Shown: one piece after another, positions 56,479-62,488 of the stretch
How the letters are laid out: every line of letters begins with the position of its first letter
How positions within the stretch are numbered: the first letter of the stretch is position 1
Origin: Thioalkalivibrio sp. ALJ16
GTDB taxonomy: Bacteria; Pseudomonadota; Gammaproteobacteria; Ectothiorhodospirales; Ectothiorhodospiraceae
DNA length: 64,000 bases
Direction: 5' to 3'
Assembly: GCF_000377345.1 (NCBI RefSeq)
Contig: NZ_KB898042.1
Span: 1 to 64,000, forward strand
The notes under the pieces: model-generated
The model's input: the letters and a program-made list of their open reading frames with translations, nothing else
The model's database searches: none
Told to the model about the DNA's origin: nothing
Program-made: the position numbers and the translations under genes

Positions 56479-57885
56479 TTAGGTGTTCTTGATGGCGTCG
56501 AAGGCCTCGAGAGCCGCCTGGCGGCTGGCCTTCAGGTCCACGATCGGCGCCGGATAGTTGCGCGCGCCTCCCGCGCCTGGCGCGTGAATATACCGCGTTT
56601 CGATGTTCTTTAGGGCGGGCAGAAAGCGGCGCACGAAACGACCTTCCGGGTCGTACTGCTCGCCCTGGCGCTGCGGGTTGAAGACCCGGAAGTAGGGTGC
56701 GGCATCGGCGCCGCAGCCCCCGGCCCACTGCCAGCCCAGGGTGTTGGCGGCCAGGTCGGCGTCGACCAGGGTGTCCCAGAACCAGCGCGCGCCGTGATGC
56801 CAGTGCAGGCGCAGGTTCTTGGTCAGGAAGGAGCCCACCACCATGCGCAGGCGATTGTGCATCCAGCCTGTTTCCCACAGTTGCGCCATGGCCGCGTCGA
56901 CCACCGGTACCCCGGTGCGCCCGCGTTGCCAGGAGCCGAGATCGGTCTCGGATTCGCGCCAGGGGAAGGCCTCGAAGCGCGGGTTCAGGGGGCGTTCCGG
57001 TGTGTGCGGAAAGTGGTAGAGCACATGATGGGCGAAGTCGCGCCAGCCGAGTTCGCGCACAAAAGCCTCCGCGCCCCCGTGTTCCGTATCCAGCCCGGCC
57101 TGCCGCAGGGCGCGCAGGATCTGGCGGGGAGAGATCTCGCCAAAATGCAGGTGGGGTGACAGGCGTGAGGTGCCGTCCCGGTCTGGTCGGTCCCGGGTCC
57201 CGCCGTAGTCTCGGGCGGTGTGCTCCAGAAAGCCCTGCAGGCGCTCGTGGGCCGCGACCTCACCGGGTTTCCAGTTGGCGCGCAGGCCGCCGGCCCAGTC
57301 GATGCCGGGCAGGAGCTCCAGCTGCTCGATGGTGAGCGACTCCGGCTTGCGTTCAGGAGCCGCTAGCGCGCCGGGCGCGGGCAGCGGGTCCTGATCGATG
57401 CCGTGCTGGCGACAGGCCTTCCAGAATGGCGAGAACACCCGGTAGGGGCGTCCCTGTCCGGTCTCGACTTCCCAGGGCTCGAGCAGCAGCGCGGCGTTGA
57501 AGCTGTGGACATCGAGGCCGTCGGCGCGCAGGCCGGCCTTGATGTCCTGGTCGCGCAGTACGCAGGCGGGGTCGTAGAGCCGATTCCAGTACACCGCCTC
57601 GGCGCCGGTCTCGGCGATCAGGGCGCGCAGGGTGTCCAGGCTGGGACCGGCACGCAGGATCAGCGGGCTACCGGCCTGCTCGAATTCGGCGGCCATCGCC
57701 TGCAGGCTATGATGCAGCCACCAGTTGGAGGCGGCGCCCGGCTGCCAAGGGGCCTCTTCTTCCGGCGCATGGATGAACACCGGGATCACCGGTGCGCCGC
57801 GAGCGGCCGCCGCGTGCAGTGCCGGTTGGTCGGCCAGGCGCAGGTCGCGCCGAAGCCAGACCAGAGTGGGGCCGGGGTGTGCCAT
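56479..57885 (-). CDS. phrB: CPD photolyase (deoxyribodipyrimidine photolyase)
   Basis: A 468-residue FAD enzyme that uses blue light to repair cyclobutane pyrimidine dimers. The N-terminal antenna domain begins TLVWLRRDLRLADQPAL. The FAD domain carries TSRLSPHLHFGEISPRQI, ELGWRDFAHHVLYHFP, MAQLWETGWMHNRLRMVVGS and NTLGWQWAGGCGADAAPYFR, which includes the electron-transfer Trp and active-site residues. The ATG at 57885 shares its base with the stop of the upstream (6-4)-type photolyase (TGATG-like overlap), so translation is coupled. Confidence 0.96.
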   Translation of the reverse strand: MAHPGPTLVWLRRDLRLADQPALHAAAARGAPVIPVFIHAPEEEAPWQPGAASNWWLHHSLQAMAAEFEQAGSPLILRAGPSLDTLRALIAETGAEAVYWNRLYDPACVLRDQDIKAGLRADGLDVHSFNAALLLEPWEVETGQGRPYRVFSPFWKACRQHGIDQDPLPAPGALAAPERKPESLTIEQLELLPGIDWAGGLRANWKPGEVAAHERLQGFLEHTARDYGGTRDRPDRDGTSRLSPHLHFGEISPRQILRALRQAGLDTEHGGAEAFVRELGWRDFAHHVLYHFPHTPERPLNPRFEAFPWRESETDLGSWQRGRTGVPVVDAAMAQLWETGWMHNRLRMVVGSFLTKNLRLHWHHGARWFWDTLVDADLAANTLGWQWAGGCGADAAPYFRVFNPQRQGEQYDPEGRFVRRFLPALKNIETRYIHAPGAGGARNYPAPIVDLKASRQAALEAFDAIKNT

Positions 57886-59462
57886 CAGATGCGGTCTCCT
57901 TTTGCCAGGCTCTTGCGCAGCTCGCCGGCGCGCTCGCGGATTGCCTGCAGACGTTCGGGGTCCATCTTTTCCAGATGTTTCCACTGCAGCGCGGTACGCG
58001 GGTGGCGCGCGAAGCGGTCGCGGTGGCGAGCGAGGAAGTCCCAGTACAGTGTGGTGAAGGGGCAGGCCTTTTTACCCACGGCCGTGCCCGGATCGAACGC
58101 ACAGTGCTGGCAGTAGTTGCTCATGCGCTGGATGTAGCGGCCGCTGGCGACATAGGGTTTCGAGGCCATACGGCCGCCATCGGCGTATTGCGACATGCCG
58201 ATCACGTTGGGCAACTCCACCCATTCCACGGCGTCCACGTAGATGCCGAGATACCAGGCGTGGATTGCCGCGGGACGGACCCCGAGCAGTTGTGCAAACA
58301 GTCCAGTCACCATCAGCCGCTGGATGTGGTGGGCGTAGCCCAGCCGCAGGGTCTGTCCCACGGCCTGGTGCAGGCACTGCATGGAGGTATCGGCATCCCA
58401 GTACAGGGACGGTAGAGGTTCGCGCGCGCCCAGGGCGTTCCACTCGTGCCATTCGCCGCCAAAGTGGAAGTACAGCCCGCGCACGTACTCGCGCCAGCCC
58501 AGGATCTGGCGGATGAATCCCTCGGTCGCCGCCAGCGGTGCATCGCCGTCACGCCAGGCCTGTTCCGCGGCGGTGACGACCTCCCGCGGATGGATCAGGT
58601 GCAGATTCAGCGCGGCACTGAGGCGGGCATGGTAGAGCCATGGCTGGTCGGTCCACATCGCGTCCTGATAGGTGCCGAAATGCGGCAGGCGATGGGCAAT
58701 AAAGTCGTCCAGGGCCGCACGCGCCTGCTGCGGGGTTACCGGCCAGTCAAAGGCCTCGTCCTGACCCGGCAGATCCGGGAGGTGGCGCTGGATGTCCTGC
58801 TGGCATTCGCGGGTGATGGCGTCCGGCGGAAAGCTCAGGGGTTCCGGCAGCAGGCCGGGGCCTTGGCCCCCGAAGTGGCCGCGGTTGTCGGCGTCGAAAT
58901 TCCATTGTCCGCCGGCCGGTTCGTCGCCATTCATCAGGATGTCGAGGCGCGCACGCTGCTCGCGGTAGAAGTACTCCATGCGCAGCTGCTTGCGCCCCCG
59001 CGCCCATTCCGAGAACGCGGCCAGTGGCACGAGGAAATGCGGGTCCTCGTGGATCTCGAGCGGGGTGCCCCCGGCCCGGCAGGCCGTTTCCAGCAGGCCC
59101 TGAACGCGGTGCTCGCCCGGTTGCAGTACGCAGAGCTGGCGCGGTTGCAGACGTTTCAGGTCGGCCTCCAGCGCCGCGTCGAGGGTCGTCTCGGCGTGCT
59201 GCCCCAGGCGCCGGTAGTGAACGGTCAGGCCCTGCTCGCGCCGTGCGCGGGCGAAGTGGCGCATCGCGGCCAGAAACAGCGTGGTACGGGCCGTGTGCGA
59301 CGGAACGTGCTGCGACTCGGCCGCGACCTCGGCCATCCAGAGCGCGTCCTGCTGTGGGTCCAGCTGCGCAAGGACGGGGTGCTGCGGGTCAAGCTGATCC
59401 CCGAGTACGACCAGCAGGGTACGCGGGTGCTCGGCTGCGCGCGGGGACGAAGGGCGGGTCAC
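57885..59462 (-). CDS. cryB: Iron-sulfur bacterial cryptochrome/(6-4) photolyase
   Basis: A 525-residue FeS-BCP-type photolyase (Pfam 'deoxyribodipyrimidine photolyase-related'). The C-terminal cluster ligands YCQHCAFDPGTAVGKKAC show C-x2-C-x12-C, the same spacing as in Agrobacterium PhrB, plus an upstream Cys in MQCLHQAVGQ. Other family blocks are LLVVLGDQLDPQHPVL, WREYVRGLYFHFGG and WYLGIYVDAVEWVELPN. Such enzymes repair (6-4) photoproducts with FAD and DMRL antenna. The start is a GTG at 59462, 14 bases after the MerR stop, without a clear ribosome site. It forms an operon with merR and phrB. Confidence 0.93.
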   Translation of the reverse strand: MTRPSSPRAAEHPRTLLVVLGDQLDPQHPVLAQLDPQQDALWMAEVAAESQHVPSHTARTTLFLAAMRHFARARREQGLTVHYRRLGQHAETTLDAALEADLKRLQPRQLCVLQPGEHRVQGLLETACRAGGTPLEIHEDPHFLVPLAAFSEWARGRKQLRMEYFYREQRARLDILMNGDEPAGGQWNFDADNRGHFGGQGPGLLPEPLSFPPDAITRECQQDIQRHLPDLPGQDEAFDWPVTPQQARAALDDFIAHRLPHFGTYQDAMWTDQPWLYHARLSAALNLHLIHPREVVTAAEQAWRDGDAPLAATEGFIRQILGWREYVRGLYFHFGGEWHEWNALGAREPLPSLYWDADTSMQCLHQAVGQTLRLGYAHHIQRLMVTGLFAQLLGVRPAAIHAWYLGIYVDAVEWVELPNVIGMSQYADGGRMASKPYVASGRYIQRMSNYCQHCAFDPGTAVGKKACPFTTLYWDFLARHRDRFARHPRTALQWKHLEKMDPERLQAIRERAGELRKSLAKGDRI

Positions 59463-59476
59463 GGCGCCGGATGGCG

Positions 59477-60436
59477 CTAAGTGGCGAGTTGCCGCGCGAG
59501 GCGCTGTGCCGCCTCGAGCGGCGGGCCGGGGAGCACCTCGACCTCGCGTCCATGCGCCATCTGCGATAGCTCCAGCGCGGCAGAACCGGCCAGGAAGCAG
59601 GGTGGCCCGGCCTGCTTGAGGATGGACTCGATACGCGGCAGTTCCGGGCTGCGTTTCAGCTGCGACGAACCGTGGATGATCACCGCAGGGGCGTGCAGGC
59701 GCTGAACCAGCGTCTCCAGACCTTCGGGGCTGGTGGCGTCGAACAGGGGCAGGGTCTTCAGGCCCTGGCGCGCGCAGGCCAGTTGCAGGAGCAGCCCGCC
59801 GACCTGCTGGTGGCCGCCACCGAGCACGAGACAGGGGTAGGTCGGCCCCTCGCAGGCCCGCAGTGCAGCCCGCAGCTGGTCGGCGAAGGCCGCCGTGGCC
59901 CAGGCAGCGAAGATGGCGAGCCGGACCTCACCCTCCGCGCTGTGCCGGGATTCCTCGCGCAGGCGACGATAGACCTCGAGAAAGGCACTTTCATGAACGC
60001 CGTTCCAGCCGTGACGCATCACCAGACGCGAGTAGCAGCGGTCCAGCTCGCCGACGTCCAGCCCGGCAACGGCCTGGTGCAGGGTTTCGGCGATCGGATC
60101 GGTGGTGTGGGGCGCAACGCCCGGACCGGGGCTCCTGCGGCGCGGGGTCTCAGAGGACTCCGCCCGCGCGGCGGGCGGGGGCTCGTCGTTGAGCACGCGG
60201 TGGACCTGGGAGACCGGGATCCCCTGATCCAGCAGTTCCAGGATGCGCTTGATGCGGGCAATGTCACCCGAGCTGTAGAGCCGGTGGCCCTTGGGCGTGC
60301 GCATCGGGCGAATGAGCCCGTAACGACGCTCCCAGGCGCGCAGGGTTACGTCGTTGATACCCGTCTCCGCACATACATGCCGGATCGGGTAGAGCCCTTC
60401 CTGGTCCTGGGGTTCGATATGCGTGGTACTCGCCAT
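59477..60436 (-). CDS. MerR-family regulator with B12-binding-type domain (LitR/CarH class)
   Basis: A 319-residue regulator. Residues 14-82 form a MerR helix-turn-helix (LYPIRHVCAETGINDVTLRAWERRYG). Residues about 114-200 correspond to the four-helix cap and 200-319 to a Rossmann B12-binding domain with GGGHQQVGGLL; His209 occupies the cobalt-ligand position of the xHxxG motif. The W-x9-EH cap motif of AdoCbl-binding CarH is not present (R160/EV170-171 at the equivalent place). So it may be a B12-independent 'class II LitR' type. The start ATG 60436 has no ribosome site and lies one or two bases after a predicted transcription start, so the mRNA is probably leaderless. It heads the cryB-phrB operon. 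Confidence 0.9.
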   Translation of the reverse strand: MASTTHIEPQDQEGLYPIRHVCAETGINDVTLRAWERRYGLIRPMRTPKGHRLYSSGDIARIKRILELLDQGIPVSQVHRVLNDEPPPAARAESSETPRRRSPGPGVAPHTTDPIAETLHQAVAGLDVGELDRCYSRLVMRHGWNGVHESAFLEVYRRLREESRHSAEGEVRLAIFAAWATAAFADQLRAALRACEGPTYPCLVLGGGHQQVGGLLLQLACARQGLKTLPLFDATSPEGLETLVQRLHAPAVIIHGSSQLKRSPELPRIESILKQAGPPCFLAGSAALELSQMAHGREVEVLPGPPLEAAQRLARQLAT

Positions 60437-60443
60437 GGGTTAA

Positions 60444-60476
60444 TTGTACGACATCTATACAGCTCGTGTACAAGGA
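60444..60476. promoter_or_regulatory. CarH-like operator: three 11-bp direct repeats
   Basis: TTGTACGACAT (60444-60454), CTATACAGCTC (60455-60465) and GTGTACAAGGA (60466-60476) are consecutive 11-mers fitting nTnTAC(A/G)n4, the repeat form known for CarH/LitR operators. The TAC triplets recur exactly every 11 bp. On the minus strand TTGTAC (60473-60468) and TACAAT (60449-60444) could be -35 and -10 elements with a 19-base spacer, as in MerR-regulated promoters. The operator covers the merR promoter, suggesting autoregulation. Confidence 0.8.
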
Positions 60477-60589
60477 GGCCGGATCGAACCCGAATTCCCC
60501 GCGATGTTGCGGTCCGGGGATGAACCTTCAGGCCGCCTGCGTCAACCAAGAACCATAGCAATCTTTCCGATCAGGGGCAGGGAGCAGGC

Positions 60590-62488
60590 ATGTTTACGCG
60601 AACCGGAACCGCAAACCCGAAGGCCGCGCTGGCGGTTGTGCTGCTGGCCGGCCTGCTGGGCCTGTCCGGCGGGGCCCAGGCCAATCCGGAGATGGCGGAC
60701 AGCATCTCGCCCTACCTGCGTCTGCACGTGGATGACCCGGTGCAGTGGCGCGCGTGGGACCCGGCCCTGCTCGAGGAGGCCCGCGAGCAGGGCCGCCCCC
60801 TGCTGATCTCCAGTGGCTACTACTCCTGCTTCTACTGCCATGTGATGCAGGACGAGAGCTTCCGTGACGAAGGGATTGCCCGGCGCCTGAACGAGCACTT
60901 TATCCCGGTGAAGGTGGACCGCGAGGTGGACGGGGCGCTGGATACCTACCTGCTGGAGTTTCAGCGGGCGACAGCGGGGAGCGCCGGCTGGCCGCTGAAC
61001 GTGGTGGTCACCCCGGACGGGCATGCCCTGACCGGCGTGGTCTATGCCCCGCGGGACGGCTTTGCCGAGTTCCTGGACCGGATCACCGAGCGCCTCGACG
61101 CCGACTACGACGCCCTGCTGGATCTGGCCCGTCGTGGCAGCGAGGAGCTCTCGCAGCGTCTGCGCGACGGCGAGGAGCCCCTGTCGGCGGGCCGTGCCGG
61201 GCGTCTGCCCCAGGTCCTGTGGAACCGCCTCGAGCGCGAGGCCGACGACCTTGGCGGTGGCTTCGGGCAGTCCACCAAGTTCCCGCATTCGCCCTGGCTG
61301 CGGGCCATGCTCGAGGCCGAGCAGGCGGGGACGGCACCGGGCTGGGTCGGCGAGTTTCTGGAGATCACGCTGGAGGAGATGGCGGGATCCGGGCTGCGCG
61401 ATGTGCTGGGGGGCGGGTTCTTCCGCTACTCCGAATCGCCCGATTGGAACGAGCCCCATTTCGAGGTGATGCTGGAGGATCAGGCCCAGTTGTCCTGGAT
61501 TTACCTGCAGGCGGGGGCGCACTACGACCGCGATGACTGGATTGCGCTTGGGCTGGAGAACCTGGACTTCGTGAAGCGCGACATGGCCCTGCGCGAGGAC
61601 GAGCTGGGGGCGTCGGCGGCCCCGTCCGCCACCGGTTTCCGGGGCTTTGCCTCCAGCCTCTCGGCCGTGGATGAAGAGGGACGCGAAGGCGGTGCCTACC
61701 TGTGGCCGGAGTCCGATCTGGAGTCGGCCCTGGCCGACCATCCCGACCCCGATCTGGTGCGTGCGGCATTCGGCATGGACGGCCGGGCCGTGTTCGAGCT
61801 GGGATACCTGCCACGCAGCGGCGCCGACGTGGACGAGCTGGCCGAGCGCTTCGATCTCGACCCCGACATGGCGCGGGAACAGCTGGAGGCGGGTCGGAGT
61901 GCCCTGATCCGTGCCCGTGAGGCACGCGGGCTGCCGCGGGACGAGAAGGTCCTGACCGGTGCGCACGGACTGTTGCTGTCCGCGCTGGCGGTCGCGGCGA
62001 AGCATGACGCCCGTTTCCACGCGGCCGGCGAGGCCGTGCGCGACTGGCTGCTGGAGGTCGGCGCCGACGCGGAGGCCCTGCCGGCCCTGATGGGGCTGCC
62101 GCAGGAGCAGGCCGGCTCCGCCACGCTGAACGACTATGCCTATGTCGCGCGCGGGCTCTACGACTGGGAAGAGCGCCAGGGCGCGGGCGATTTCGCGCCC
62201 GTAGTGGCACTGCTGGAGGTGGTATGGGAGCGTTTCCGTGACGCGGACGGGTTTCGCGCCGAGCCGGAGCCGCCGTTGCCGGGGATGATCTCGCAGCGCT
62301 TCCATCCGGCGGTGCATCGCCCGTCGCCGACCACCCTGATCCTGGAGCTGACCGCGGCGCTTGCGGAGGCGGGTGCGGGGCTGGAACAGGTCATGTCGGA
62401 CGACGACCTGCGGCCGGGCCGCGCCATCGAATCCAGCCCGGAGCAGCACGCCCGCCTGATCCTCTGGCTCGAACAGCGCAATCGCTGA
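60590..62488 (+). CDS. Periplasmic thioredoxin-like DUF255 protein (YyaL/SSP411 type)
   Basis: A 632-residue protein with a signal peptide (cleavage near AQA-NP, residue 31). An N-terminal thioredoxin-like DUF255 domain includes PYLRLHVDDPVQWRAW, the redox motif SGYYSCFYCHVMQDESF (Cys80-x2-Cys83) and VKVDREVDGALD. It is followed by a large alpha/alpha-barrel-like domain with GGGFGQSTKFPHSPWL, DVLGGGFFRYS and GAYLWPESDLESAL. Most homologues (for example YyaL) are cytoplasmic, so the export signal is notable. Function is unknown. GGGAG lies upstream of the ATG. Transcription could be affected by the CarH-like operator 114 bases upstream, divergent from merR. Confidence 0.88.
   Translation: MFTRTGTANPKAALAVVLLAGLLGLSGGAQANPEMADSISPYLRLHVDDPVQWRAWDPALLEEAREQGRPLLISSGYYSCFYCHVMQDESFRDEGIARRLNEHFIPVKVDREVDGALDTYLLEFQRATAGSAGWPLNVVVTPDGHALTGVVYAPRDGFAEFLDRITERLDADYDALLDLARRGSEELSQRLRDGEEPLSAGRAGRLPQVLWNRLEREADDLGGGFGQSTKFPHSPWLRAMLEAEQAGTAPGWVGEFLEITLEEMAGSGLRDVLGGGFFRYSESPDWNEPHFEVMLEDQAQLSWIYLQAGAHYDRDDWIALGLENLDFVKRDMALREDELGASAAPSATGFRGFASSLSAVDEEGREGGAYLWPESDLESALADHPDPDLVRAAFGMDGRAVFELGYLPRSGADVDELAERFDLDPDMAREQLEAGRSALIRAREARGLPRDEKVLTGAHGLLLSALAVAAKHDARFHAAGEAVRDWLLEVGADAEALPALMGLPQEQAGSATLNDYAYVARGLYDWEERQGAGDFAPVVALLEVVWERFRDADGFRAEPEPPLPGMISQRFHPAVHRPSPTTLILELTAALAEAGAGLEQVMSDDDLRPGRAIESSPEQHARLILWLEQRNR

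Follow-up and report, generated by a model that had tools for sequence, protein, structure and literature searches.

We found that the stretch at 60441-60473 of the window, the 64,000 nucleotides of Thioalkalivibrio sp. ALJ16 DNA that were analyzed, is probably the autoregulatory operator-promoter of a CarH-fold, B12-independent MerR repressor that resembles class II LitR and is relieved by a short LOV protein. The regulator gene, merR (59477..60436, minus strand), encodes a 319-residue protein of the MerR/LitR-CarH fold without the cobalamin-ligand residues. As an earlier note on this DNA had stated, it heads two photolyase-type genes on the same strand in a merR-cryB-phrB operon: cryB (57885..59462), for an FeS-type cryptochrome/photolyase-related protein (DPRP, PF04244), and phrB (56479..57888), for a class I CPD photolyase (FAD_binding_7 plus DNA_photolyase). 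Divergent from merR lies a DUF255/Thioredox_DsbH gene (60590..62488, plus strand), and a divergent DUF255/thioredoxin-fold gene adjoins merR across the genus; it is possible that this gene is under the operator of merR as well.

On the plus strand, the three consecutive 11-mers TTGTACGACAT (60444-60454), CTATACAGCTC (60455-60465), and GTGTACAAGGA (60466-60476) place a TAC exactly every 11 bp, as the earlier note had described; its reading of them as nTnTACA repeats holds strictly for the second and third and fails for the first, which ends TACG. On the minus strand, which is the coding strand of merR, the hexamers are TGTACA (60467-60472), TGTATA (60456-60461), and CGTACA (60445-60450), and the site can be written as three 11-bp units. 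Unit 1 (TTGTACACGAG, 60463..60473, minus strand) contains the TGTACA at 60467-60472, which is the best -35 match, unit 2 (CTGTATAGATG, 60452..60462, minus strand) forms the promoter spacer, and unit 3 (TCGTACAATTA, 60441..60451, minus strand), which is conserved in 31 sequences, overlaps the predicted -10 hexamer TACAAT (60443..60448, minus strand), itself ending 6 nt before the ATG at 60434-60436. The orientation of the repeat is not fixed by the sequence, because TGTACA is its own reverse complement.

A promoter scan of 60380-60620 returned one site, TGTACA-18-TACAAT with its 18-bp spacer, which places the predicted -35 in unit 1 and the predicted -10 in unit 3. The CarH-type 11-bp repeats proposed for this site do, then, overlap the merR promoter, and tandem 11-bp repeats overlapping a -35 or -10 are a feature of CarH operators. 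Read on the coding strand, one unit has the strict operator form TnnACA, and on the opposite strand two do; the remaining merR units are degenerate, like the "dr" units of CarH operators (PMC9304148). Scored against a TGTAYA/11-bp model, the merR triple reaches 17/18, with 13 for the next best triple in the window and 11-15 for the top triples in 60 first-order Markov sequences of 64 kb. A triple pattern fitted to the site and allowing up to three mismatches matched the merR site only, once per strand, with a mean of 0.03 matches in shuffled sequence.

The site is not alone. Searches for the regulon were searches for sequence patterns, and the exact tandem 11-bp pattern occurs at 87 sites in 28 of the 30 genus genomes, compared with none for the reversed-pattern control. 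We extracted 66 stretches around such sites, a few of them overlapping at a single site; 63 contain one of five gene sets, and pntB-priA accounts for the remaining three. The recurrent neighbors are merR-cryB-phrB, folE-DUF3429/FAD-oxidase-DUF1365-CMAS, a DUF3365 gene followed by a short LOV gene, a PAS chemoreceptor gene, a STAS-CheA operon, and priA. This genome has triples between the divergent folE-DUF3429 and FAD-oxidase-DUF1365-CMAS-MFS genes and before a PAS-PAS-MCP gene (G000:C2:49613-49640; L111, L199), pairs just upstream of the STAS-CheA operon (G000:C13:68433-68449; L114, L201) and between pntB and priA (G000:C9:90466-90482; L121), and a pair with one mismatch ahead of a DUF3365 (Tll0287-like) gene, which the LOV gene follows. 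The pntB-priA site is conserved in four genomes (L121, L160, L213, and L232), and tandem sites at the STAS-CheA operon and the PAS-PAS-MCP gene recur in other genomes of the genus. A match to the relaxed pattern upstream of LexA (L122) was dismissed as an SOS-box-like palindrome, and matches inside the icd, EF-G, and aminotransferase genes (L118, L123, and L120) were taken as chance. The distribution of the pattern suggests that blue light controls the whole repeat-marked gene set without vitamin B12, and the STAS-CheA and PAS-PAS-MCP sites suggest light control of chemotaxis gene expression; priA is a possible light-regulated replication-restart gene. The description of the merR site as a new member of a small known set was thus an understatement, the site being one of those of a candidate genus-wide regulon.

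The light sensor is likely to be a separate short LOV protein, and not the product of merR. The LOV gene (G000:C4:26754-27182) follows the DUF3365 gene and encodes a protein of 142-143 residues with the flavin-cysteine motif CRFLQ, whose best matches in the PDB are short LOV "sensory box" entries, including 3sw1/5j3w, PpSB1-LOV of P. putida. All 30 genus genomes encode this LOV, at 81-100% identity, as do six other genomes of the family, at 71-75%. Each of those six also has the regulator, and in five further family genomes the regulator occurs with no close LOV. A tandem site lies ∼0.95-1.05 kb upstream in 20 of 28 LOV loci. At the LOV locus of this genome, the gene directly behind the site is DUF3365, and LOV comes only after it. 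Between the two genes lies a GC hairpin with four T residues behind it (L200:5320-5350, minus strand), which the terminator scan did not call. This hairpin could limit their cotranscription, so LOV may not be transcribed together with DUF3365. That the repressor answers to light through some other receptor, such as a BLUF protein in the manner of BluF-BluR of E. coli, or to photo-oxidative stress, is unlikely. This genome does encode a BLUF-domain protein (G000:C3:154949-155239), and B12-independent homologues of the CarA type in Myxococcus respond to other signals (PMC9304148). However, BLUF is found in only 12 of the 30 genus genomes, on which ground it was disfavored as the partner of the regulator, and no 11-bp site lies within 1.5 kb of the BLUF gene in this genome, whereas most LOV loci have upstream sites.

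The predicted start of the merR transcript is the A of the ATG or a position within one base of it. An in-frame TAA at -6 leaves no room for an earlier start, which makes the ATG at 60434-60436 the only possible start of merR. With one mismatch allowed, the string TACAAT-N6-ATG is no rarer in the window than expected by chance, and the weight of the leaderless evidence is carried by conservation among orthologues. The regulator has one orthologue in nearly every genus genome, and named records place the orthologue group in Thioalkalivibrio and other Ectothiorhodospiraceae. We compared 31 Ectothiorhodospiraceae sequences with usable upstream DNA, the window included. Repeats are present upstream of the orthologues, at least two units being retained in 31/31, where their absence would have told against the earlier reading. 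All 31 have a -10-like hexamer over the last unit (TACAAT in 26 and TATAGT, TACACT, or TACAGT in 5), and the gap from this hexamer to the ATG is 6 nt in 23 and 7 nt in 8; since hexamers were placed only where an in-frame ATG followed after 5-9 nt, it is the narrow 6-7-nt range, and not the ATG, that is informative. No Shine-Dalgarno-like 4-mer precedes the ATG in any of the 31 sequences. The two features of a leaderless gene, a -10 that places +1 at the AUG and the lack of a Shine-Dalgarno sequence, are thus present throughout the set, in keeping with the remarks of the earlier note that the -10 lies close enough to the ATG for a leaderless mRNA and that no ribosome site is visible.

Among 21 less similar sequences, pairwise identity is 0.90 in the -10, 0.77 in unit 3, and 0.50 in unit 2, and it falls to 0.25-0.29, the level of chance, elsewhere in the upstream DNA. 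Unit 2 reads TGTAYA, CGTACA, or TATACA in every sequence, and unit 1 survives, as TGTACA or in a near variant, in the sub-clade of the window alone, the other sub-clades having lost it and been left with two units. In 26/31 the last unit is followed by AT, a pattern that unit 2 does not show, which suggests that the -10 has been under selection in addition to the repeat. It is quite unlikely that the merR mRNA instead has a normal leader from an unrecognized promoter further upstream, with the repeats serving as operator only. The chance-level frequency of TACAAT-N6-ATG in the window would suit such an arrangement, but it is opposed by the unconserved upstream DNA, set against a hexamer and a gap kept in 31/31, by the uniform lack of a Shine-Dalgarno sequence, and by the scan, which has no second promoter-like site. 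On these comparisons, leaderless self-repression of merR is very likely. Within an incomplete coverage of the literature, our search found no publication that describes leaderless CarH/LitR genes and none that treats this system in Thioalkalivibrio. The relatives L079, L085, L092, and L107 keep the B12-contact residues, and their 11-bp repeats end 10-11 nt before the start codon; given these, the regulator family may have short leaders, or none, more widely.

The merR product has the architecture of CarH without its cofactor site. Its AlphaFold2 (AF2) model (pLDDT 88) shows a MerR helix-turn-helix (HTH) together with the four-helix and Rossmann parts of the cobalamin-binding-domain fold, as in CarH, whose cobalamin-binding domain is the top structure match, with Z 19.3 and an rmsd of 2.7 Å over 193 residues. 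Pfam identifies the MerR HTH alone, with no match to a B12 domain, including B12-binding_2, which is reported for the PmlRs. Where CarH has the W, E, and H of Wx9EH and its lower axial His, the merR product has S, L, A, and Q, so that all four cobalamin contacts are changed, and the contact residues are absent throughout the merR clade (SLAQ, ALAR, and others). The description of merR as a MerR/B12-domain gene, and with it the idea of a B12 light sensor, therefore did not survive, apart from the CarH-like fold. All four residues (W/E/H/H) are kept in 23 other gammaproteobacterial relatives, which form one side of a branch in the tree (99/95). The clade of the window is separate there from a Pseudomonas/Halomonas group that also lacks the contact residues; the tree is unrooted and has long branches, and is thus compatible with one loss of these residues or with several.

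These data bear directly on a classical CarH mechanism, in which the merR product would bind AdoCbl and sit as a dark tetramer on three 11-bp units until light breaks the tetramer. Both the closest fold and the nearest NCBIfam model, the latter matched far under its cut-off, are CarH, the operator has the CarH form of 11-bp tandem repeats (PMC9304148), and an 11-bp site stands upstream in 15 of the 23 W/E/H/H-keeping relatives. This last point suggests that B12-type CarH and the merR clade have the 11-bp grammar in common. Nevertheless, we rejected a B12-type CarH identity because the contact residues are lost, in the window protein as in the whole clade, and with no Pfam B12 domain such a mechanism is very unlikely. 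Least probable of all is that the regulator is an activator that twists a long-spacer promoter in the classical MerR way, as its family and the weak -35/-10 pair (18-bp spacer, or 19 bp with TTGTAC as the -35) might indicate, since several orthologues keep the units over the -10 but have neither unit 1 nor any -35-like hexamer, and the characterized LitR/CarH relatives are repressors (PMC9758184, PMC9304148).

The nearest known counterparts of the LOV-relieved repressor are PmlR2/PmSB-LOV of Pseudomonas mendocina and PplR1-3 of P. putida (PMC9758184), which are likewise B12-independent MerR proteins of the LitR/CarH fold. As a LitR/CarH homologue without a functional B12 site, the merR product has a feature of class II LitR, at ∼27-31% identity to the Pseudomonas relatives. 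Both systems have TGTACA half sites and a short LOV with the flavin cysteine (PMC9758184). The light genes of P. putida and P. mendocina include phrB, cryB, folE, an FAD oxidoreductase gene, and ufaM (PMC9758184); candidate operators adjoin phrB, cryB, folE, FAD-oxidoreductase, and CMAS genes in this genome and in the genus, giving common candidate targets that include a CMAS/UfaM-type gene. Because gene content, receptor, and half site match those of the Pseudomonas system, a class II LitR/LOV mechanism can be proposed for merR by analogy. The two differ in that known class II LitR sites have 18-bp spacing (TGTACA-N12-TGTAYA; PMC9758184), in pairs, whereas the units here are of 11 bp in two or three copies; this genome has no perfect 18-bp site and only one-mismatch matches. 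The putatively leaderless self-operator, the extra chemotaxis and priA sites, and the location of the LOV gene apart from merR are further differences. Six Halomonadaceae regulators (L046, L058, L071, L075, L094, and L106) have an upstream TGTACA-N12-TGTACA and a leader before the ATG; theirs is the 18-bp form, where Ectothiorhodospiraceae have the 11-bp one.

With CarH/class I LitR of Thermus thermophilus, Bacillus megaterium, and the Myxococcales (PMC9304148), the merR system shares the fold, the HTH, and tandem 11-bp operators overlapping the -35 or -10, but it differs in the missing cobalamin-contact residues and in its candidate targets, which are photolyase and furan-fatty-acid-type genes in place of carotenoid genes. 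Given that the 18-bp operator and the CarH cofactor site are both absent, we file merR between CarH and class II LitR. CarA of Myxococcus xanthus is similarly a B12-independent CarH paralogue, but it works with CarS and regulates carotenogenesis. BluR of E. coli is another MerR protein that leaves DNA through the action of a separate blue-light receptor, but that receptor, BluF, is a BLUF protein where the one here would be LOV.

For the merR operon we infer repression, leaderless initiation, contact between LOV and the repressor, and a response to light, which would fit together as follows. In the dark, the repressor would occupy two or three tandem 11-bp units, covering the -35, the spacer, and the -10, and so shut off merR-cryB-phrB, whose leaderless merR mRNA would have its 5' end at or within one base of the ATG. 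Under blue light, the stand-alone short LOV would form its flavin-cysteine adduct and, in this state, bind the repressor and lift it from the DNA, releasing expression of the photolyases and the folE/furan-fatty-acid-type genes, of a chemoreceptor and a Che operon, and probably of priA. More tentatively, and at somewhat less than even likelihood, a CarH lineage may have given up the B12 photosensor within its own protein and come to rely on an external LOV anti-repressor, with the 11-bp CarH operator grammar retained, and may use a conserved leaderless, self-repressed promoter for blue-light control of DNA repair, chemotaxis (PAS-MCP and STAS-CheA), and replication restart (priA) in a chemolithoautotroph.

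The merR system joins two systems so far kept apart, the tandem 11-bp operator of CarH and the LOV-controlled class II LitR of Pseudomonas. Its promoter is compact and apparently leaderless, with operator, -35, -10, and start codon within ∼40 bp, and would suit studies of how operator spacing coevolves with the type of sensor. For haloalkaliphilic sulfur oxidizers, the host being a soda-lake sulfur bacterium, the repeats define by sequence a candidate blue-light regulon, in which chemotaxis and replication restart are new candidate targets of blue-light control.
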